From Alphaproteobacteria bacterium (GTDB taxonomy: Bacteria > Pseudomonadota > Alphaproteobacteria > Rs-D84): a stretch of 41,386 nucleotides of DNA. Below, piece after piece: positions 2,898 to 14,853 of the stretch. The position numbers and the translations under genes are program-made. The notes beneath the pieces were generated by a model. The model made no database searches. It saw nothing but the letters and a program-made list of their open reading frames with translations, and was not told the DNA's origin. Where the stretch lies: assembly GCA_017535105.1 (NCBI GenBank), contig JAFXUI010000001.1, forward strand, positions 238,612-279,997. The letters are read 5' to 3'. Each line of letters starts with the position of its first letter. Position 1 is the stretch's first letter.

Positions 2898-3827
2898 ATG
2901 TTCCGCAAGATTCTAATTGCAGCAATGTTTTGTTGTGCGGCGGGTTATTGCTTTGCCGCAAGTGACGGTATGCCCCAGGTTGTCACTTCTGAGGTTTTTT
3001 ATACCCAGGATAAGACGGTCGATGTTCAAAATGACGCGGTGCGCGAAGATTATTCTGAACAATCTGTCGAAGTGCCGGCATGGCCATTGGCTGGTTCTGA
3101 TGCAGATGTCGAAGTTTCCTGTGCCGAAGGTGCGTGTAGCAAATCAAAACAGTCGGACAATATCCGTATCGTGTCCAAGATTGGTTCGGACCTGGTCGTT
3201 GAAAATAATTTCAATTTGGGTACACGTGGCGATTTTTCTGGTTGGTCGGGCGGCGCAAATATGTTGCATGGAACACAAATTCCAGTTGGGTTTGATGACG
3301 AATGTAATAACGGTTCCGAAATGCCATTGTTACATCGCGAAGTGTTGGAAGACGATGGTGGCGATGTTTTGGTGATGTCACGCAGTGGTCGTAAATCTTG
3401 TAATAAATATTCCGACGGTTATTCGGCATATCTGGCCAAGACGGGTTTATCAAAACAAGAAATCGCACAATTGAACGCCGAAGCGTCTTCGGACGAATTT
3501 GCGGCGACAGACGAAACCGAAATTGGTGTTGATTTATCAGCGGATGCCGAAGCCCCAGCGGTCGTTACAGACCAGGTTCGTTCATGGGTTGTTGCAAATG
3601 GCCAGACATTACGCGAAGTTTTGCAGTCATGGTGCGACAAAGAAGGTTGGGATTTGGTTTGGACAACAACACGTGAATATCCAATTGAAGCAAGTGCTGT
3701 ATTCAAGGGGCGTTTTGTTGATGTCGCGTCTGCGCTGGTTCGTAACTTTGGACGCGCAACACCAATTCCATATGCCAAGTTCTATAAGGGCAATCGGGTG
3801 TTGGTCGTATCAACCACAGAAGAATAA
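2898..3827 (+). CDS. TcpQ/PilL-like type IVb pilus biogenesis protein
   Basis: A 309-residue exported protein with a signal peptide (MFRKILIAAMFCCAAGYCFA, cleavage about residue 20). A long acidic, variable middle is followed by a C-terminal domain (about residues 225-308) with GQTLREVLQSWCDKEGWDLVW and a GNRVLVVST end. That is the pattern of the TcpQ C-terminal domain found in PilL/TcpQ proteins, which chaperone or attach to the secretin of type IVb pili. A paired CAEGAC motif lies in the middle. The next gene, 31 bases downstream, encodes a PilN-type secretin, which supports the assignment. It acts in the periplasm or at the outer membrane (inference from the family). Confidence 0.8.
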   Translation: MFRKILIAAMFCCAAGYCFAASDGMPQVVTSEVFYTQDKTVDVQNDAVREDYSEQSVEVPAWPLAGSDADVEVSCAEGACSKSKQSDNIRIVSKIGSDLVVENNFNLGTRGDFSGWSGGANMLHGTQIPVGFDDECNNGSEMPLLHREVLEDDGGDVLVMSRSGRKSCNKYSDGYSAYLAKTGLSKQEIAQLNAEASSDEFAATDETEIGVDLSADAEAPAVVTDQVRSWVVANGQTLREVLQSWCDKEGWDLVWTTTREYPIEASAVFKGRFVDVASALVRNFGRATPIPYAKFYKGNRVLVVSTTEE

Positions 3828-3858
3828 AATATTTGTTTGACCGTAGGAGAAAACACAT

Positions 3859-5487
3859 ATGATGAAGACGATGAAAATATTGTTTGTATGCGTTATGGGG
3901 GTCGCGGTGTTGACCGGGTGCGCACGAAAGGAATCGGCCAAAGTTGCGGCGTCGGTCGATCAAGATTTCGTGAATGCATATGACGCGTTCGAGATGTCTA
4001 AAAATCCACGTGCCAAGGTTGCCAGTGGCGATACGGTTTCTATGTCTGATGGTGTATGGTTGGGTAATAAATCTTTGGTGCCAGAACACAAGAATAATTT
4101 GCCGTCAAAATTCGAAACGGATTCTGGGGTTACAATATTATTAAATGAACCAGTGACATTACAAGTCTTGGCAAATGATATAAACGCTGTTACTGGGTTG
4201 CCGGTGAAAATCGACAGCCAGGTCAGTTCTGAAAAACTGAAAAAGACAATGAATATCGCATATACCGGAAAATTGTCCGGCCTGTTGTCCCAGGTTGCAA
4301 CAGATTTAGATTTGTTGTGGTACTATGACAAAACATCAATTGTATTCTATGAAACAGAAACTCGTACATTTGCATTGTATGCTCTGGGGACCGAGGTTTC
4401 GTATCAAACCGCAATGAATACAGATGATGGTAACCAGGTTTCATTGGAATCTACATTAAAAGAATGGGACGAAGTTGAAAGTGCAATTTCCGCCATTGTC
4501 GGTAAAAGCAGTAATGCCGACTTTACCGTATCGCGCAGTTTGGGAACAATTACTGTGACGGCACCACCATCAATTTTGGCGCGTGTTGGTGATTATATCA
4601 ATCGTCAAAACAAACGTCTGTCGCAATTGGTGACAATTGACGTCAAAGTGTTACAGGTGTCTATTTCTAATGATTCCGCATTTGGTCTGAATTTGGCCGC
4701 GGCGATAAACTCAACGTCTGGATTGAATATCGTTGCAAATCCAAAGAACAATTTGGCCACTACCGAAGCAAGTTCAATGAATATCGCGGTGTTGTCTAAT
4801 ACGGTATCGGCATTGTCGGGTGCAACACACACCGTCAATGGTTCCGAAGTTGCTGGCGCATACACACAAAACGATATTATGAATGGTTCGTTGGCAAGTG
4901 TTGCGGGAACAAATGCGCTGGTTCAATCATTGGCAAAGCAGGGTAAAGTATCGTTGGTTACCAATGTTGGTGTGACAACCCGTAATAACCGTGTTGCGCC
5001 TGTGAATAACACACGTACAACCGGGTATATCAAACGGTTTGAATCTCGTAACTTTACAACAGTCGAATCGTCAACGGTTGACCAAGATGATTTGGAAACA
5101 GGTTTTTCAATGCAGTTGTTACCGAACGTTTTGGAAAACGGCAAGATATTGTTGTTGTTCAGAATGTCTGTACGTGAATTGTTAAAGATGTCAACCCAGA
5201 CAATTGGCGAAGTCACATTACAGTTGCCAGAGGTTGAAGAACGTAGTTTCATGCAAGAAGTAATTATGGAATCAGGTCAGATGTTGGTTGTTTCTGGATT
5301 TGAAAAACAGAATAACAGTGATACCCGTTATGGTTTGGGTGATCCGGACTTTATGGCATTGTCTGGTTCGCGTGAAACGGCAGCGCAACGTGATGTTTTG
5401 GTTGTTATCTTAACACCACAAGTTTTGATAAGCCCGATGGATTCTGAACGTACGATTCAGCAACATTGGGGTGCACCATTGAATTAA
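3859..5487 (+). CDS. pilN: PilN-family type IVb pilus secretin lipoprotein
   Basis: A 542-residue outer-membrane secretin that forms the pilus exit pore. It has a lipoprotein signal with lipobox LTGC (Cys21), an N-terminal STN-like region (VTLQVLANDINAVTGLPVKI, about residues 98-118) and an N-domain with TVTAPPSILARVGDYINRQ (about 232-250). The C-terminal secretin beta-domain includes LEERSFMQEVIM-like residues and GQMLVVSGFEKQNNSDTRYG. The match is to R64 PilN/TcpC/BfpB secretins rather than PilQ. The start is the first of two adjacent ATGs, with AGGAG 9 bases upstream. It is co-transcribed with the TcpQ-like gene and closed by a terminator. No assembly ATPase or platform gene lies beside it. 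Confidence 0.88.
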   Translation: MMKTMKILFVCVMGVAVLTGCARKESAKVAASVDQDFVNAYDAFEMSKNPRAKVASGDTVSMSDGVWLGNKSLVPEHKNNLPSKFETDSGVTILLNEPVTLQVLANDINAVTGLPVKIDSQVSSEKLKKTMNIAYTGKLSGLLSQVATDLDLLWYYDKTSIVFYETETRTFALYALGTEVSYQTAMNTDDGNQVSLESTLKEWDEVESAISAIVGKSSNADFTVSRSLGTITVTAPPSILARVGDYINRQNKRLSQLVTIDVKVLQVSISNDSAFGLNLAAAINSTSGLNIVANPKNNLATTEASSMNIAVLSNTVSALSGATHTVNGSEVAGAYTQNDIMNGSLASVAGTNALVQSLAKQGKVSLVTNVGVTTRNNRVAPVNNTRTTGYIKRFESRNFTTVESSTVDQDDLETGFSMQLLPNVLENGKILLLFRMSVRELLKMSTQTIGEVTLQLPEVEERSFMQEVIMESGQMLVVSGFEKQNNSDTRYGLGDPDFMALSGSRETAAQRDVLVVILTPQVLISPMDSERTIQQHWGAPLN

Positions 5488-8406: not shown

Positions 8407-8424
8407 TATAGTATATTACACGTA
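8407..8424 (+). promoter_or_regulatory. possible promoter for a leaderless dprA transcript
   Basis: TATATT (8412-8417), or the overlapping TATAGT (8407-8412), ends 6-11 bases before the dprA ATG at 8424. No Shine-Dalgarno sequence is seen before that ATG. The mRNA could therefore begin at or next to the start codon. No good -35 is visible. Confidence 0.4.
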
Positions 8425-9446
8425 TGTCAGATTTATTTAATAAATTGTTGATTTTACGTACACCGAAAATCGGACCGGTACGCTATGCCGAAATCATATC
8501 GCAATTTGGCGCGCTTGACGCGGCGGTTGATGCAATCGGTGTGAACGATTCAGTGCGCGACAGTGTTGCACGCGAAATGGACGTGGCGGCACAGTTAAAC
8601 ATTACATACATATCAGACGATGAAGATTTATATCCGCCACTTTTACGTGCGGTAAAAAATCATCCGCCGGTGATTACGGCGCGGGGTAATTTGGAAACAT
8701 TGAAAAAGCGTTGTGTGGGTATGGTGGGTACGCGGCACGCGACCGCTGCTGGTATGGAGTTTATGGGGAATCTGGCAACCGCATTTGCATCGCATGACTT
8801 TGCAGTCGTATCGGGTATGGCAATGGGAACCGATTCGGCGGCACATCGTGGCGCACTACGTGCGAATGGCGACACACAAACAATTGCGGTCCTGGGTGGC
8901 GGGGTTGATTATATATGGCCACTGGAAAACGAATCGTTATATTATGAAATTGTGGAACGTGGTGTGGTAATAAGTGAAATGCCGGTGGGCTTTAAGCCAA
9001 CGGGATCAAACTTTGTTCAACGCAATCGTTGGATTGCAGGTTTGTCTGAAAAGTTGATATTGGGTGAAGCAGACCTGAAATCTGGCAGTATGACAACCGC
9101 GCGATTCGGTGTGGAAATGGGACGCGAATTATGGGCGATTCCGTCACACCCCGCAGATTCACGGGCCGTTGGTCCAAATTCATTAATTGCGAATGGTGTG
9201 GCAAAATTATGTATGGGCGAATCGGATTTCTTTGGCGATAAAAAAACGACAAAAAAATCGAACGAAAAAAATATAAATTCCGAATCAGAAAATGACGTTT
9301 TGGATAAATTAGGAACAATTCCTTTGTCCGAATCTGTATTGACACAAATTGTCAAAAAAAGTGTTTCGGAAATTAAACGCGATTTAGTTGTACTGGAATT
9401 GCGCGGTGCTGTGAAAAAAGTGGACGGTGGATACATTCGACTGTGA
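8424..9446 (+). CDS. dprA: DNA processing protein DprA (Smf)
   Basis: A 340-residue cytoplasmic protein that binds incoming single-stranded DNA and loads RecA during natural transformation. It has an N-terminal helical part with a HhH-like segment (KIGPVRYAEI). The Rossmann-like core carries GTRHATAAGMEF, VVSGMAMGTDSAAHRGAL, AVLGGGVDYIWP and the SGSMTTARFGVEMGRELWAIP end. A Lys/Asn-rich linker leads to a C-terminal winged helix (about residues 290-340). Length and domains are typical. It is monocistronic, with terminator upstream and a long non-coding gap downstream. With the type IVb pilus genes it may hint at DNA uptake, but no comEC is in view. Confidence 0.95.
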   Translation: MSDLFNKLLILRTPKIGPVRYAEIISQFGALDAAVDAIGVNDSVRDSVAREMDVAAQLNITYISDDEDLYPPLLRAVKNHPPVITARGNLETLKKRCVGMVGTRHATAAGMEFMGNLATAFASHDFAVVSGMAMGTDSAAHRGALRANGDTQTIAVLGGGVDYIWPLENESLYYEIVERGVVISEMPVGFKPTGSNFVQRNRWIAGLSEKLILGEADLKSGSMTTARFGVEMGRELWAIPSHPADSRAVGPNSLIANGVAKLCMGESDFFGDKKTTKKSNEKNINSESENDVLDKLGTIPLSESVLTQIVKKSVSEIKRDLVVLELRGAVKKVDGGYIRL

Positions 9447-9805
9447 ATCTTTTCTTGTCTATACAGTGTCTATACAAAGCGCGGAAAACTGGTAAAAAAA
9501 CGAATCGTTGTCAAAAAATAAATCTTTAATTTTTTATCAAGATTTATTTGCAAATCGAAAATTATCTTATAAATTGTTTCCTGTAATCCAAACGATTGAT
9601 AAACATCAATCACCAAAGCGGTTGGCGGAATATCAATAAGATAGAAAACTAACCACTGACAAAGCGAGAGGGTATAACCAAAGTAGGGCAAACATAAACA
9701 CTAAATTTTTTGTAACGGAAAAATTTAGCGTTTATGTGCAGGGTGCTTTTTATACTCTTACGCACAAAGCAGGAAACTCTTTTAGGGAAGGAAAGGAGAA
9801 ACGAC
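9447..9805. promoter_or_regulatory. dnaA upstream regulatory region, possible origin-like segment
   Basis: This 359-base gene-free stretch is unusually rich in symmetrical elements. A direct repeat TGTCTATACA occurs at 9456-9465 and 9467-9476, an 11-base period. An 11-base inverted repeat AAATAAATCTT / AAGATTTATTT (9516-9526, 9539-9549) lies in AT-rich DNA. ATTGAT / ATCAAT follows at 9595-9610, and a long hairpin at 9693-9736. No clear DnaA box (TTATNCACA) was found by eye, so an origin is only a possibility. An ORF on the minus strand (9470-9691) starts with TTG and is not credible. Confidence 0.4.
9693..9736 (+). promoter_or_regulatory. long palindrome upstream of the dnaA promoter
   Basis: Arms CATAAAC-A-CTAAATTTTT and AAAAATTTAG-C-GTTTATG give 17 pairs with one A/C mismatch around an 8-base loop TGTAACGG. 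It is not followed by a T-run. A -10-like TATACT (9751-9756) lies 14 bases downstream, so the right arm covers the expected -35 position. That suggests an operator rather than a terminator. Confidence 0.6.
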
Positions 9806-11074
9806 ATGCAGGTAGCGGCAACAAAACAAATGACAAACTTGGATTTAATCCGTGGGGCCATTGCCGCAAAAATTGATAACGCTTGTTTTTCTGCTTGGAT
9901 TGAACCTCTGGATTTTGATATTTCCGAAAATGTTTTACAACTGGGTGCGCAAAATCAGTTTTCTGCGGACTATGTTTCGTCTGTATATGGAAATGTTTTG
10001 TCATCGGTTGCAAGTGAACATGGTTTATCATTAAATATATATGTGCGTGGCGCCACGGTGGCACCAATTGCAAATGACAATTCGGTCGCAACATATGCGC
10101 CAATGCGTTCAGCGACCAACGCATGTGCATTTGATGCGTTTGTTGCATCCGAAGAAAACGCATTCGTCTTGTCGGCATGTAAAAAAATATCAGCGGGTTC
10201 TGTTTCTTTCAGCCCGCTGTTTATTTATGGGCCATCGGGTGCGGGCAAAACATTATTGGCGGGGTGTATTCGTGATGCGTCCGCGGGCCGCGTAGTAATG
10301 ATGACGGGTGGCGGTTTTGTTTCTGAATTCACACGTTCGTTGCGTGACCATAATATTTACGCGTTCAAAGATTATTGCCGTAACTGTGACACATTTATTT
10401 TGGACGATGTGAACGCGTTGGCGGGCAAGCGTGCAACAATGGACGAATTTGTCCAGTTGGTTATCGATTTACGCAATGCTGGTAAAAACGTTGTTTTAAC
10501 ATCAAATACGGCCCCAAATAATTTGACCGGTTTTGACAGACATGCCCAATCATTGTTTGCGTCTGGTTTGACGGCGGACGTGGTGGCACCAAATGATAAT
10601 GTTAAACGTGTAATGCTTATGCGTGCGGGTGTTTCTGCAAACGTTGCATCGGCATTGGCATCGCGTATCGCATCGGACGGGCACATGGTTGCGGGTGTCG
10701 CAAATAAAATCAAAACATACGCCGAATTAATGAATGCCGATGTCACTGTGGACGTTGCTGAACGTTTACTGGTGGACGTATTAAAGAAATCAAAAACCCC
10801 AATTGCGATGGTTAAATCAATGTGCGCATCAATGGGTGTATCGTATGACGCGGTATGTGGTACGGGTCGCAATCGTTCATTGGTCTTGGCGCGCCAGGTA
10901 ATGATGGTTGTATTAAAGGGTGTAACAAAGTTGTCACTTTCGGAAATTGGAAATTATGTTGGTGGGCGCGATCATGCAACGGTGATGTATGCGATAAAAC
11001 AGATTGAAAAACAAATGGCGTCTGATTTGGTTTTGGCGGCACAGATAAACGATATGATTGCGGAATATAAATAA
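9806..11074 (+). CDS. dnaA: chromosomal replication initiator DnaA, divergent form
   Basis: A 422-residue AAA+ initiator that binds and opens the replication origin. Domain I is at residues 1-75 and a short linker follows. The AAA+ core has Walker A GPSGAGKT (about 149), Walker B FILDDVNAL and sensor 1 VVLTSN. C-terminal domain IV holds the DnaA signature RSLVLARQVMMVVLKG...SLSEIGNYVGGRDHATVMYA. Oddities: the box VII motif normally read as SRFGWGL is SLFASGL, and the sensor II ALNR is VANK, so two conserved arginines are absent. Start ATG 9806 follows AAGGAAAGGAGAA. It is not followed by dnaN, which is at 24810. Confidence 0.88.
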   Translation: MQVAATKQMTNLDLIRGAIAAKIDNACFSAWIEPLDFDISENVLQLGAQNQFSADYVSSVYGNVLSSVASEHGLSLNIYVRGATVAPIANDNSVATYAPMRSATNACAFDAFVASEENAFVLSACKKISAGSVSFSPLFIYGPSGAGKTLLAGCIRDASAGRVVMMTGGGFVSEFTRSLRDHNIYAFKDYCRNCDTFILDDVNALAGKRATMDEFVQLVIDLRNAGKNVVLTSNTAPNNLTGFDRHAQSLFASGLTADVVAPNDNVKRVMLMRAGVSANVASALASRIASDGHMVAGVANKIKTYAELMNADVTVDVAERLLVDVLKKSKTPIAMVKSMCASMGVSYDAVCGTGRNRSLVLARQVMMVVLKGVTKLSLSEIGNYVGGRDHATVMYAIKQIEKQMASDLVLAAQINDMIAEYK

Positions 11075-11140: not shown

Positions 11141-11190
11141 TTGGAACAGGGCGAAAAATATGATAAAATACATTAAAAGTATTGTTCCAA
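11141..11190 (+). promoter_or_regulatory. promoter flanked by TTGGAAC / GTTCCAA inverted repeat
   Basis: -35 TTGGAA (11141-11146), 17 bases, -10 TAAAAT (11164-11169) within TGATAAAAT. The -35 is part of TTGGAAC (11141-11147), which is repeated inverted as GTTCCAA (11184-11190) in the leader just before GGGGGAGAA. The same arrangement occurs at 13052-13101. Confidence 0.7.
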
Positions 11191-11202
11191 TGGGGGAGAA
11201 TA

Positions 11203-12960
11203 ATGAAAAAAATAATTATTTGTATGTTGTGTTTATTCATGGCCATGCCGGCATTCAGTGCTGAAAATTGCAGTAAATATGGTGTTAAACCCGGGCAATT
11301 TATATTAATGAAGTCAGGCACAGCGTGGTATGTCAAAGAATGTGTCCAAGATGGCAATAAAGAAAAATTGCGTGATAAAGAAGTCGCACAATTTTGTGAT
11401 AACCCAAGCGAGGCTCTTAACGGTTGGGAAAATCGTGCAGTACGTGGAAATGCGACATTGCGCGTGAAAACAAGCGCAATTATTGATGGTGATATTAATA
11501 AAACGGGTAACATCGCTTTGTCTGAATATTGGGATAAAAATACGGCATGTTTATTCTGTGATGACGGGTATTCTTATAAAAATGGGCGGTGCGAAGAAGA
11601 TATGGCGCAGAGTTGTACCACATTGGCATCTGCTAAATGTAAAAGAAGCAAGCATTTGATTGGTTCTGGTTTGAATGGTTGCTTTGTATGTGATAATGGT
11701 GAAAAAGCGTCTTGTCGTGCCGGAAACAGAATCTTTTTACATACTGGGCGTGTTGCAGGTAGTGGTAGTGAGTTTATGAATCAAGTGTGGGAATGTAACC
11801 CAGATAAGAAAGAGTGGACGCATAAATCGCCAGAGGTATGTAAAGATTCGCCAGATTTGTCCGGCGATATTGCGGCAAAAGGTGTAATACGAGAAATTAT
11901 TAATCCAGACACAGAAGAATCTCATAATAACGCGTCCAGTTGGGTTATTGATAATGGTGATATTTGTGTAAAATATTCATGTGATACCAGCAAGGGTTAT
12001 ATTCGTGATGGTAATAAATGTATCCAACCCCGTAATTGGAAAGAATTGTGTGAAGCGGACACCAGTGGCGGTATCTATGATGAACAAACTGGTGCGTGCT
12101 TATGCTATGAGGAAAAAGGCCAGGAAAAAGATGGACATTCATGTAAGTGTTCGCAAGAAGGTTTTGTCTATGATAAAAATGCCAAACCAGATGGTAAATG
12201 TGTGAAAGATCCAAAACTGGTAGCGGCAGAAAATCAGCAACAACAGCAAGCCCAAAACAATCGTAACAAATGTACATCTTCGGGTGGAAGTTACGAAAAT
12301 GGAAAGTGCACATGTTCGGAAAGTAAGAACTTGCTTTTGGGCAATGGCGAATGCAAATGTAAAAGCAACGATTTCAAATTTGAAAATGCCGCAGTTGGTT
12401 GTGTTGAAAAAGATGAATCAATTCGCAGAAAAGCATGTGAATCAGCGGCCGACACCGGGGCATATTGGGACGGAACAACATGTTTGTGCAACGCACCAGA
12501 CTTGGTATTCATTGCTGGCAAATGCCAAGAAATAGCCGAAGCAACAGAATGTAAAGCGGCGTCCAAGGTTGCAACATGGGATTCGCAAAACCTTGTTTGT
12601 TTGTGCAAGAAAGCCGGCTATGAATGGGTTGATAAAACATGTCGCCCAAGTGCAGAGACAGTTGCCGCCGAAAACGAATTAAAGGCGACCCAGAAAGTCA
12701 GAACACTTGTCGAGGGGTTAAAGACAAAGTTTGCAAGTTTGGGTGTGTCGGTATGGAAAGATAAAGAGGGTAATTTCAATAAAGCACGTTTGGCATCTGA
12801 TTCAATTGCGGGTGTTGTGTTGGGTACCGCGGGTGGTTTAATTACAAGCCATGTTGTTAAAAAGAACCAGGTCAAGAGTGGTTTTGAAGATATCCAATGT
12901 GTTGTCGGTGGACAAAAGGTTGCCGATTGGGGTGACGAGTTTACGGTCGGCATACAATAA
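11203..12960 (+). CDS. secreted cysteine-rich protein with EGF-like repeats, paralogue A
   Basis: A 585-residue exported protein of unknown function. It has a signal peptide (MKKIIICMLCLFMAMPAFSA), then many short Cys modules of the CLCYEEKG, CKCSQEGF and CTCSESK type, spaced like EGF or growth-factor-receptor Cys repeats, with a Gln-rich stretch (ENQQQQQAQNNRNK) between. Near the C-terminus is a glycine-rich hydrophobic helix (SIAGVVLGTAGGLITSHVV) and a conserved end GGQKVADWGDEF. From about residue 410 to the end it is closely similar to the product of the next gene. The many cysteines imply disulfides outside the cytoplasm. Start ATG 11203 follows GGGGGAG. Adhesin or envelope structural protein is a guess. 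Confidence 0.8.
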   Translation: MKKIIICMLCLFMAMPAFSAENCSKYGVKPGQFILMKSGTAWYVKECVQDGNKEKLRDKEVAQFCDNPSEALNGWENRAVRGNATLRVKTSAIIDGDINKTGNIALSEYWDKNTACLFCDDGYSYKNGRCEEDMAQSCTTLASAKCKRSKHLIGSGLNGCFVCDNGEKASCRAGNRIFLHTGRVAGSGSEFMNQVWECNPDKKEWTHKSPEVCKDSPDLSGDIAAKGVIREIINPDTEESHNNASSWVIDNGDICVKYSCDTSKGYIRDGNKCIQPRNWKELCEADTSGGIYDEQTGACLCYEEKGQEKDGHSCKCSQEGFVYDKNAKPDGKCVKDPKLVAAENQQQQQAQNNRNKCTSSGGSYENGKCTCSESKNLLLGNGECKCKSNDFKFENAAVGCVEKDESIRRKACESAADTGAYWDGTTCLCNAPDLVFIAGKCQEIAEATECKAASKVATWDSQNLVCLCKKAGYEWVDKTCRPSAETVAAENELKATQKVRTLVEGLKTKFASLGVSVWKDKEGNFNKARLASDSIAGVVLGTAGGLITSHVVKKNQVKSGFEDIQCVVGGQKVADWGDEFTVGIQ

Positions 12961-13113: not shown

Positions 13114-14853
13114 ATGAGAAAAACTCTGATATTTTTGTGTTGTTTATTTACCATGAATTCGGCAATGGCTGTTCTTGAATTGGGGAACATTTCGAATCCA
13201 TTGGGTTGGGTACAAACGACACAACAGGGTACATATACTGTTTCACAAGACGGTGTGTCATTGTTTTACCGGGGAAAAGATACAGGTATGAAGTTGTCAA
13301 AAGTTTCTAGACCTGGAAACCAAATAAAATTATTTGATTATGATATTCCTAAAAAACCGGTAACCCCGAAACCAACACCAGTAAACCCGCAACCAGTAAA
13401 CCCGCAACCGGTAAACCCACAACCAGTAAACCCGACACCAGTGAAACCTGGTGTAGCAGTGACGGCATTAGAAGTAGCAGGTGGCTTGATAATGCAAGAT
13501 CAAGGATTCGAAGGCCTTATTGCTGCAAATGGTGTATCGGAACAAAAGAAAACATGGAGTGACTTTGGCGCAAGCACTCTTTCTGGTGGTTTAGCTGGTG
13601 CTGGATCAACGGCGGCAGCGGCAGCAATTATAAATGTTATACCTGTGGGCGGTCAGATTGCCTATGGGGTTGCTATCGCAGCAGGTGCGGTTGTTGGTGC
13701 AGTTGGTGGTGCAATTGTTTCAGGAAAAAGAATTTTTGCTGAAACCGACTGTGAAACCGATCCTGTGGTTGGAAAGTATGCATGTTGCAATATATCAAAC
13801 TTGTCAAAGATTGATGCTGTGCGTGTTGGTATTGGTGGCGAAATGTTTTCGGAATTTCCGTACGTACGTAGATGTGTCCAGGGTAAAGACGAGTATGTTG
13901 TTGAACAATCTTGGTTAAAGGGACGTTTCTTGGACGATCATTGGAGCGCAGAAGCAGTCGTAAAATTCTGTGATGGCTATGAAATGCCAGAAGATGGAGA
14001 TTTTAAAATCCAAGTGTATGGCGCAAGTGAAGAAGAGGGCAAGGTTTGTTGGTTGTGGGAATGTGCAGATGAGGGATATTCAAGACAAGGTAGCAAGTGC
14101 GTCAAAGGTGCTGTTGTACCAAGTGATGATGTCGAAGAAAGTGAACCTTCGTTACAGAGATGTGTAACAAATCGTGAAACAGCCGAAGGTAAAGCGTGTT
14201 GTTACTTAAGTGCAAAAGTTGCAAAGTTTGTAAATGGTAGTTGCTTCTGTGTAAATGGTGGTAATTTCGTTATGAACCAAGACGGTAAGGGTGGAACATG
14301 CGTTAAAGCCACAGAAAATACAGACGAATCAGTATGTAAAGCGGCGGCTGATACGGGCGCATATTGGGACGGAAAAAAGTGCCTGTGCAACGGGTTAGAT
14401 TTGATATTCATTGGTGGTAAGTGTCAAGAAATAGCCGAAGCAAAAGCATGTAAGGCAGCGTCAGACGTTGCAATATGGGATTCTGTAAAACGTGTTTGCA
14501 CATGTAAAAAAGCTGGTTATGAATGGCTTGGGGCAACATGTCACCCAAATCAAGAAGTACTTGCCGCTGAAAACGAAGCAAAGAAAAAAGTTCAATCACT
14601 TGTCGAAGGATTGAAAACCAAGTTTGCGAGTTTTGAAAAGTCAGTATGGAAAGATAAAGAGGGTAACTTTAACAAAGCGCGTTTGGCATCTGATTCAATT
14701 GCGGGCGTTGTGTTGGGTACCGCTGGTGGTTTAATCACAAGTCACGTTGTTAAAAAGAGTCAGGTCAAGAGTGGCTTTGAAGACGTCCAATGCACAGTCG
14801 GTGGACAAAAGGTTGCCGATTGGGGTGATGAATTTTCAGTTGGTATACAATAA
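13114..14853 (+). CDS. secreted cysteine-rich protein, paralogue B
   Basis: A 579-residue exported protein sharing promoter and C-terminal third with the preceding gene but not the N-terminal two thirds. A signal peptide (MRKTLIFLCCLFTMNSAMA) and a beta-like start lead to a proline repeat VNPQP x4 (about residues 90-109). Then comes a glycine/alanine-rich double hydrophobic segment (GGLAGAGSTAAAAAIINVIP and AYGVAIAAGAVVGAVGGAIV). A Cys-rich middle and the shared C-terminal block from DTGAYWDGKKCLCN to GGQKVADWGDEFSVGIQ complete it. No enzyme motif is seen. It is likely an envelope or surface protein. The ATG at 13114 follows GGGGGAGAACG. Confidence 0.8.
   Translation: MRKTLIFLCCLFTMNSAMAVLELGNISNPLGWVQTTQQGTYTVSQDGVSLFYRGKDTGMKLSKVSRPGNQIKLFDYDIPKKPVTPKPTPVNPQPVNPQPVNPQPVNPTPVKPGVAVTALEVAGGLIMQDQGFEGLIAANGVSEQKKTWSDFGASTLSGGLAGAGSTAAAAAIINVIPVGGQIAYGVAIAAGAVVGAVGGAIVSGKRIFAETDCETDPVVGKYACCNISNLSKIDAVRVGIGGEMFSEFPYVRRCVQGKDEYVVEQSWLKGRFLDDHWSAEAVVKFCDGYEMPEDGDFKIQVYGASEEEGKVCWLWECADEGYSRQGSKCVKGAVVPSDDVEESEPSLQRCVTNRETAEGKACCYLSAKVAKFVNGSCFCVNGGNFVMNQDGKGGTCVKATENTDESVCKAAADTGAYWDGKKCLCNGLDLIFIGGKCQEIAEAKACKAASDVAIWDSVKRVCTCKKAGYEWLGATCHPNQEVLAAENEAKKKVQSLVEGLKTKFASFEKSVWKDKEGNFNKARLASDSIAGVVLGTAGGLITSHVVKKSQVKSGFEDVQCTVGGQKVADWGDEFSVGIQ
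13381..13440 (+). repeat. 15-base tandem repeat encoding VNPxP
   Basis: Four units of 15 bases (GTAAACCCGCAACCA type) at 13381, 13396, 13411 and 13426, with a few substitutions. They are in frame and encode a proline-rich spacer in paralogue B. Copy number could vary between strains. Confidence 0.9.
14332..14853 (+). repeat. 3' block duplicated between the two cysteine-rich genes
   Basis: The last ~520 bases of paralogue B correspond to 12432-12960 of paralogue A. Long stretches are near-identical at DNA level (for example around 14645-14850 versus 12752-12957), indicating recent duplication or gene conversion, whereas the gene middles differ. Confidence 0.85.

Follow-up and report, generated by a model that had tools for sequence, protein, structure and literature searches.

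The DnaA of an Rs-D84 alphaproteobacterium and its family lacks the arginine finger and the sensor II arginine of the ATP switch

The ATP/ADP switch of DnaA is treated as near-universal, and how far switching and titration each account for the timing of initiation in E. coli is described as an open debate (PMC10235992, PMC12371093). A dnaA gene whose product lacks two arginines of this switch therefore raises the question of whether its lineage still uses the switch, uses it in another way, or carries a second, normal dnaA. Such a gene lies in the window, a stretch of 41,386 nucleotides from an alphaproteobacterium of the order Rs-D84 (GenBank assembly GCA_017535105.1, contig JAFXUI010000001.1). 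Candidatus Enterousia, which PMC12306168 assigns to this order, is characterized there as genome-reduced and probably partner-dependent. The genome of the window comprises 869,733 bases on 6 contigs and is 96% complete, not closed.

The gene encodes a full-length DnaA of 422 amino acids (422 codons plus stop; Table 1). Its membership of the DnaA family is given by the presence of domain I, an AAA+ domain III, and a helix-turn-helix (HTH) domain IV in one protein, with all 3 Pfam gathering cut-offs exceeded (PF00308, 104 bits against 23; PF08299, 69 against 31.5; PF11638, 31.5 against 24.6). The NCBIfam model TIGR00362 (DnaA) was the best family by far, with a score of 249.3 bits that lies under the equivalog cut-off of 343.9, which marks the protein as a divergent member. 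An AlphaFold2 model, calculated from an alignment of 29 sequences, had a mean pLDDT of 88.1, and the nearest solved structures retrieved by Foldseek were DnaA proteins, with domain III of B. subtilis fitting at 2.5 Å over 235 columns. An identity as Hda was considered and rejected. The 2 proteins have the AAA+ part in common, and the Hda model TIGR03420 gave a weak match (41.9 bits, cut-off 194.8), but Hda/HdaA has about 230 amino acids and no domains I and IV, both of which the window protein adds. Given the Shine-Dalgarno-like sequence in front of the ATG at 9806, an in-frame ATG at 9734 is probably not the start.

Table 1. Positions in the window of dnaA and of the sites discussed in the text; residue numbers are those of E. 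coli DnaA, and f1 is the family of the window
Feature	Position	Strand	Basis and remarks
dnaA	9806..11074	+	only gene for a replication initiator detected in this genome; Pfam domains I, III, and IV
AAGGAG, Shine-Dalgarno-like	9793..9798	+	sequence; ends eight bases before ATG 9806
Walker A GPSGAGKT, kept	10229..10252	+	alignment; K178 position is K in 89/89 distinct f1 rows
Walker B FILDDV, kept	10394..10411	+	D235 in 89/89 and D236 in 86/89 distinct f1 rows
Sensor I, D269 to Asn	10505..10507	+	alignment; N 70/89 and D 5 among distinct f1 rows
Box VII DRHAQSLFASGL: R285 to Leu, R281 to His, D280 to Arg	10535..10570	+	alignment
R281 to His, codon	10541-10543	+	alignment with E. coli DnaA
R285 (arginine finger) to Leu, codon	10553-10555	+	alignment with E. 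coli DnaA
Sensor II helix DGHMVAGVANK: R334 to His, R342 to Lys	10676..10708	+	alignment
R334 (sensor II) to His, codon	10682-10684	+	alignment with E. coli DnaA
R342 (Arg of ALNR) to Lys, codon	10706-10708	+	alignment with E. coli DnaA
Domain IV, DNA-binding part	10868..10990	+	R399, D433, and H434 kept; P423 to Ser, T435 to Ala, H439 to Tyr

Residues were assigned with DnaA of E. coli MG1655 as the ruler, aligned with the window protein and its relatives. A previous, sequence-only reading of the locus had described a DnaA that keeps Walker A, Walker B, and the DNA-binding signature while missing the arginines of box VII and sensor II. The alignment agrees with the first part of this description: K178, D235, and D236 are retained, so that the Walker A lysine and Walker B aspartate taken as the test for ATP binding are present. 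The missing box VII arginine is likewise real, as R285, the arginine finger, is a leucine. For sensor II, the arginine is indeed absent, but the wrong residue had been named: R334 is the arginine of VREL(EGAL), which is a histidine here, and not that of ALNR, which corresponds to R342. In the AlphaFold2 model, the sensor II helix begins at residue 292 in the 422-residue numbering, and this histidine (residue 293) is its second residue.

Whether these changes belong to one genome or to a lineage was read from alignments at 3 levels. The family of the window (f1) consists of Candidatus Enterousia (genus g1) and its kin, gut bacteria with tiny genomes. It was represented by 99 DnaA rows, 10 of which were identical from E. 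coli position 130 on, leaving 89 distinct rows; fragments reduce the readable rows to 88 at position 285 and 87 at position 334. These rows cover a subset of the f1 genomes with matches; beyond the genomes taken earlier, they include 30 selected loci and some further stretches, and the window gene (L001) is counted once. Forty-two named loci were assigned to f1 by 61-80% identity rather than by taxonomy label, and two carry the name Enterousia; from these named relatives, the genus of the window is Enterousia. The order was represented by 14 rows from other families, with L137 (G049), which is cut at a contig end, left out. The class rows came from other Alphaproteobacteria: of 72 genomes with a match outside f1, the 30 with the highest scores were taken, and 20 more, most of them with low scores, were picked.

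No readable f1 row has an arginine at either position. Position 285 is occupied by leucine in 70, valine in 16, and isoleucine in 2 of 88 rows, and position 334 by histidine in 85 and asparagine in 2 of 87. An absence this complete goes beyond chance or sequencing error, and it settles 2 points on which the sequence-only reading had wished to be checked: close relatives have no arginine at the equivalent positions, and the change is common to the lineage. Among the class rows, R334 is an arginine in 50/50 and R285 in 47/50, so that the finger, missing from 3 of them, is not strictly defining for DnaA. Both arginines are present in 10 of the 14 order rows; the exceptions are G029 (Glu285 and Lys334), G027 (Phe285), G036 (Gly334), and G051 (Ala334).

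The remainder of the f1 protein is a mixture of retained and replaced sites. The AID residues R227 and L290 are found in 86/89 and 85/88 rows, and the HTH core is retained; W6 and V211 of the H-motif are substituted in most rows. For the 867 pairs of f1 rows in the dS range 0.05-1.5, which share branches, dN/dS had a median of 0.19, and the eight closest pairs gave 0.025-0.13. The dnaA gene of f1 is thus under purifying selection and is not decaying. A few deviating rows were noted on the side. L195 (G202), L198 (G196), and L204 (G211), class rows from outside the order, have Leu, Leu, and His as the finger and keep R334. In genus g13, D236 of Walker B is a glycine in 3/3 rows (L110, L111, and L126), and a sister genome, G101, gave no DnaA match. 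Besides its main DnaA, G029 carries a second DnaA-like stretch (G029:C34:9328-10257) with stops in its first part.

The distribution of Hda, which triggers ATP hydrolysis by DnaA, was compared with that of the arginines. As the cut-off of TIGR03420 was reached in 0/84 genomes, it is no usable test for Hda here, and presence or absence was judged by the span of the profile match and the length of the frame. No separate Hda-sized match was found in the 46 f1 genomes searched (24 + 22). The remaining matches in f1 were DnaA itself, frames of 422-475 amino acids, the one checked being RarA-like, and frames of 330-363 amino acids, of which the one inspected is by eye presumably RuvB. Odd matches were seen in G010 (775 amino acids), G135 (708), G134 (366), and G143 (142, at a contig edge). 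An Hda-sized protein is encoded in 6/6 genomes of genus g4, which belongs to the order, and in G031 (222 amino acids), with a short frame in G028; in the class, it was present in 18 of 20 genomes tested, one of the 18 being weak. Wherever a genome has a full Hda, its DnaA row retains R334, and the losses of R334 seen are all confined to genomes without such a protein. In a tree built from 68 DnaA rows, some of which form long branches (L015, L012, L197, and others), R334 changes 4 times, R285 6 times, and Hda 6 times. Two independent pairs on supported branches bear on Hda and R334, and the sign test was not significant. The association between loss of Hda and loss of R334 is accordingly suggestive, and with so few independent events, an ordered loss is put forward as a suggestion only.

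Mutants made in the laboratory indicate what these substitutions may do. In E. coli, R334H is reported to abolish the intrinsic ATPase activity, so that DnaA-ATP accumulates (PMC6478999). R334 is described as required for ATPase activity, RIDA, and DDAH and as dispensable for functional initiation complexes, and R285 as required for intrinsic ATPase activity and DDAH (PMC5742627); according to PMC10380432, R285 promotes the cooperative binding and assembly of ATP-DnaA. In Caulobacter, the mutant of the equivalent of R334 (R357A) is reported to over-initiate and to be unable to replace the wild type (PMC3193534). E. coli R334H and R334A, S. elongatus R328H, and Caulobacter R357A have all lost the sensor II arginine like the f1 protein, and R334H has the identical residue (PMC6478999, PMC3193534). 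Unlike these mutants, the change in f1 is natural and fixed in a family, the finger has gone as well, and no Hda was found. From the role of R285 in E. coli and the phenotype of the Caulobacter mutant, it follows that a working initiator without both arginines would need compensation.

From the sequence evidence, we consider it reasonably probable that the sole DnaA found here is still the replication initiator and has ceased to use the ATP/ADP switch. In f1, the protein has the appearance of an initiator that is dead for hydrolysis and the assembly of which would not rest on the classical finger. It would bind ATP without regulated hydrolysis, as His334 is the very change that renders E. coli DnaA ATPase-dead, and its protomers would assemble on closely spaced boxes without a contact from Arg285 to ATP. 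With no Hda found, the timing of initiation may rest on the amount of DnaA and its titration on the DNA rather than on conversion of DnaA-ATP to DnaA-ADP. The sequence-only reading had proposed that the control of initiation by ATP may operate in another way here; three observations back this, namely the residues themselves, their fixation throughout the family, and the failure to detect an Hda. A possible order of events is that Hda was lost, after which R334 and R285 could be lost freely, accompanied by a shift in the DnaA box and in the residues of the HTH; some relatives may afterwards have lost dnaA entirely.

The same substitutions could also mean that the ATP switch was rewired. The basic residue at position 280, or R281, would then act as a new inter-subunit finger, His334 and Lys342 would read the nucleotide, and ATP would still control assembly, though with another geometry. 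Position 280, which precedes the old finger by five residues, is acidic in 41/50 class rows (E 32, D 9) and basic in 88/88 readable f1 rows (R 81, H 4, K 3), so a moved finger could preserve the switch. Position 281 is arginine in 77 and histidine in 11 of the 88 rows, both Walker motifs are retained, and the near invariance of His334 and of Lys342 (87/87 rows) looks like a new constraint rather than drift. However, the histidine at 334 is the one reported to kill the ATPase in E. coli (PMC6478999), no Hda was found in f1, and the Walker B glycine makes hydrolysis unlikely at least in g13. On balance, we regard a rewired switch as unlikely, though worth serious attention.

A candidate origin was recognized in the spacer upstream of rpmJ. 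Repeats of TTTTCAACA lie upstream of this gene in 23/23 readable Enterousia genomes, namely 20 of the 24 genomes searched (4 had no rpmJ match) together with G050, G040, and G097, with 2-5 perfect copies per spacer. In the 20 regions, 69 copies were observed, against a mean of 0.90 and a maximum of 4 in 200 dinucleotide shuffles; the canonical TTWTNCACA was not enriched in the same regions (3 against 3.4 expected). In G050, an AT-rich spacer at 597.03-597.54 kb contains rpmJ and, ahead of that gene, numerous repeats of TTTTCAACA in both orientations. In the genome of the window (G000), the array lies on contig 2 at 95.39-95.57 kb, and it became apparent only when TTTTCAACA and TTTTYAACA were looked for in the sequence ahead of rpmJ.

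A step in GC skew was found near the array in the 3 genomes checked. In G000, the skew is about 0 before the step at the array and +0.16 after it; in G003, with the array at about 23.7-23.9 kb, it starts at about 0 and has reached +0.17 at 26.4 kb. In G050, values of about -0.15 hold as far as 597 kb and of about -0.04 beyond, the skew turning positive only about 45 kb past the array, from about 642 kb. The distance from dnaA to the array is about 153 kb in both G000 and G050. An origin beside dnaA was considered and rejected, as dnaA does not lie at the skew step. TTWTNCACA matched 162 places in the genome of the window against 121 for a reversed control, without a cluster among the first 100 matches listed, and GTTTTCAACA matched 15 single, unclustered places against 8 in the control. 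In G050, no 400 bases within 372 kb held at least 4 9-mers like TTATCCACA (at most 1 mismatch), and 300 kb contained 110 such 9-mers, where permuted words averaged 58 (s.d. 41) and 10 of 60 permutations reached this number, so that no clear genome-wide excess is seen.

TTTTCAACA differs from TTATCCACA at two positions and equals the DnaA box proposed for mollicutes, TT(T/A)TCAACA, a consensus that is doubted for phytoplasmas (PMC3322544). With an array matching this box and a skew step close by, the region upstream of rpmJ is the likely oriC in Enterousia, and the repeats are probably DnaA boxes, to which the protein would bind. Outside the genus, the array is also present at rpmJ in g14 (1 genome), g16 (2), and g12 (3/4); the g16 genomes have one perfect TTTTCAACA each and 3.5 copies of TTTTYAACA on average. 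The array was not found at rpmJ in 11 of the 17 readable f1 genomes outside Enterousia (G048, G056, G095, G106, G129, and members of g13 and g18) or in 10/10 order relatives read, out of 16 with an rpmJ match. The assignment as oriC is for this reason limited to g1, g14, g16, and 3/4 of g12. Beside the likely origin of G050, type IV secretion-like genes were noted (L214, 14316-17033), which by eye we take to be VirB4 and VirB3.

The DNA-binding domain has changed at positions that may correspond to this shift. PMC7561715 lists six residues that make base-specific contacts; of these, f1 retains R399, D433 (78/85 rows), and H434, and substitutes P423 (mostly by Thr, Ser, or Ala), T435 (Ala in 85/85), and H439 (Tyr in 84/85). 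The pair T435A and H439Y is also found in 10/14 order rows. R399 is described as reading the TTA part of the box and the helix 434-451 as reading TnCACA (PMC5742627). If the repeats are indeed DnaA boxes, a shift of the box towards TTTTCAACA has now been met for a second time, and P423, T435, and H439 are candidates for the residues that read it. The 9-mer is the same as that of the mollicutes, but Enterousia belongs to an unrelated phylum, and its array is situated at rpmJ, away from dnaA.

Another possibility is that DnaA is on its way out in this lineage, replication having become DnaA-independent and the protein persisting as a relic or in the role of a transcription factor, a situation known from DnaA-independent cyanobacteria and some endosymbionts. 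No DnaA match was obtained by family or alignment search in the draft genomes G024 (97% complete), G101 (92%, f1), G025 (84%), and G147 (82%, f1), nor in the Enterousia drafts G131 (87%, 70 contigs) and G005 (70%, 110 contigs); G108, where a fragment of DnaA lies at the edge of a contig, and G039, which likewise has fragments only, are not included among the DnaA-less genomes. The genes flanking dnaA in the sisters of G101 were not found in the 321,660 bases of G101 searched, with a control in which the search worked; this speaks neither for nor against a loss. The genomes of the order are reduced throughout (PMC12306168), dnaA is reported to have been lost repeatedly in cyanobacteria (PMC7198777), and the stem of f1 in the tree is long, at 1.97 changes per column. 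Yet the genomes without a match are drafts, the protein is under purifying selection with its DNA-binding core retained, and a conserved box array lies near the skew step in Enterousia. A DnaA that has ceased to initiate replication is therefore improbable. The DnaA-independent cyanobacteria and the symbionts without dnaA resemble f1 in a loosened control by DnaA and in part in their reduced genomes (PMC7198777), whereas the f1 protein is conserved and its likely boxes have been kept in Enterousia.

The sequence-only reading had allowed for a paralogue beside a normal DnaA, and had proposed a genome-wide search for a second copy. That search returned a single match with both DnaA domains and no canonical copy; the only other, weak PF00308 match lies in a frame that by eye is presumably RuvB. 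One DnaA was also found in the single-contig relative G050 (1,001,484 bases, 99% complete). Even though the genome of the window is not closed, and though G130 has a second partial DnaA piece and G016 an extra match to domain IV only, a paralogue whose canonical partner is missing from the assembly can hardly be the explanation, given the single DnaA in G050, a DnaA C-terminal domain in 23 of the 24 Enterousia genomes searched (one match in 22, two in G016), and no f1 row examined with the canonical residue at 285 or 334. The 2 irregular matches are G130:C3:11-229, where a contig begins with part of an AAA+ domain of DnaA in addition to the DnaA on C57, and which is either a split gene or a second copy, and G016:C18:1040-1231, a second domain IV-like match in a 201-amino-acid frame of an Enterousia genome.

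An initiator working without the ATP/ADP switch thus remains the preferred reading. Compared with canonical DnaA of E. coli, B. subtilis, and Caulobacter, the f1 protein is alike in domains I, III, and IV, in Walker A and B, in R227, L290, R399, D433, and H434, and in its fold; it differs in being without R285 and R334, mostly without D269, in the frequent replacement of W6 and V211, and in 3 of the 6 base-specific residues. More tentatively, and with doubts about the sum of its parts, we propose that the family has dismantled the switch as a whole: Hda gone, an ATPase-dead histidine in sensor II, a finger gone and possibly moved to a new basic residue, the DnaA box and the residues that read it shifted to the mollicute-like TTTTCAACA, and a pure clock of amount and titration. 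If this is true, a whole family has dismantled naturally what is treated as near-universal. For the debate on timing, a lineage that naturally lacks the switch residues, in which no Hda is found and which has one dnaA and a candidate origin, would offer those who favour titration an experiment done by nature. In the literature accessible to our search, outside of which most subscription journals fall, nothing was found on DnaA in Rs-D84 or on natural loss of these arginines.

Two further features of the window were noted near dnaA. Upstream, a TcpQ-like protein followed by a secretin (2898-5487, + strand) and dprA (8424-9446) are components of a type IV pilus or of competence, present here although the genome is reduced. 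Downstream, the adjacent unassigned open reading frames at 11182-12960 and 13114-14853 (+ strand; 592 and 579 amino acids) have sub-threshold matches to DUF5874 and are possibly a duplicated pair beside dnaA.
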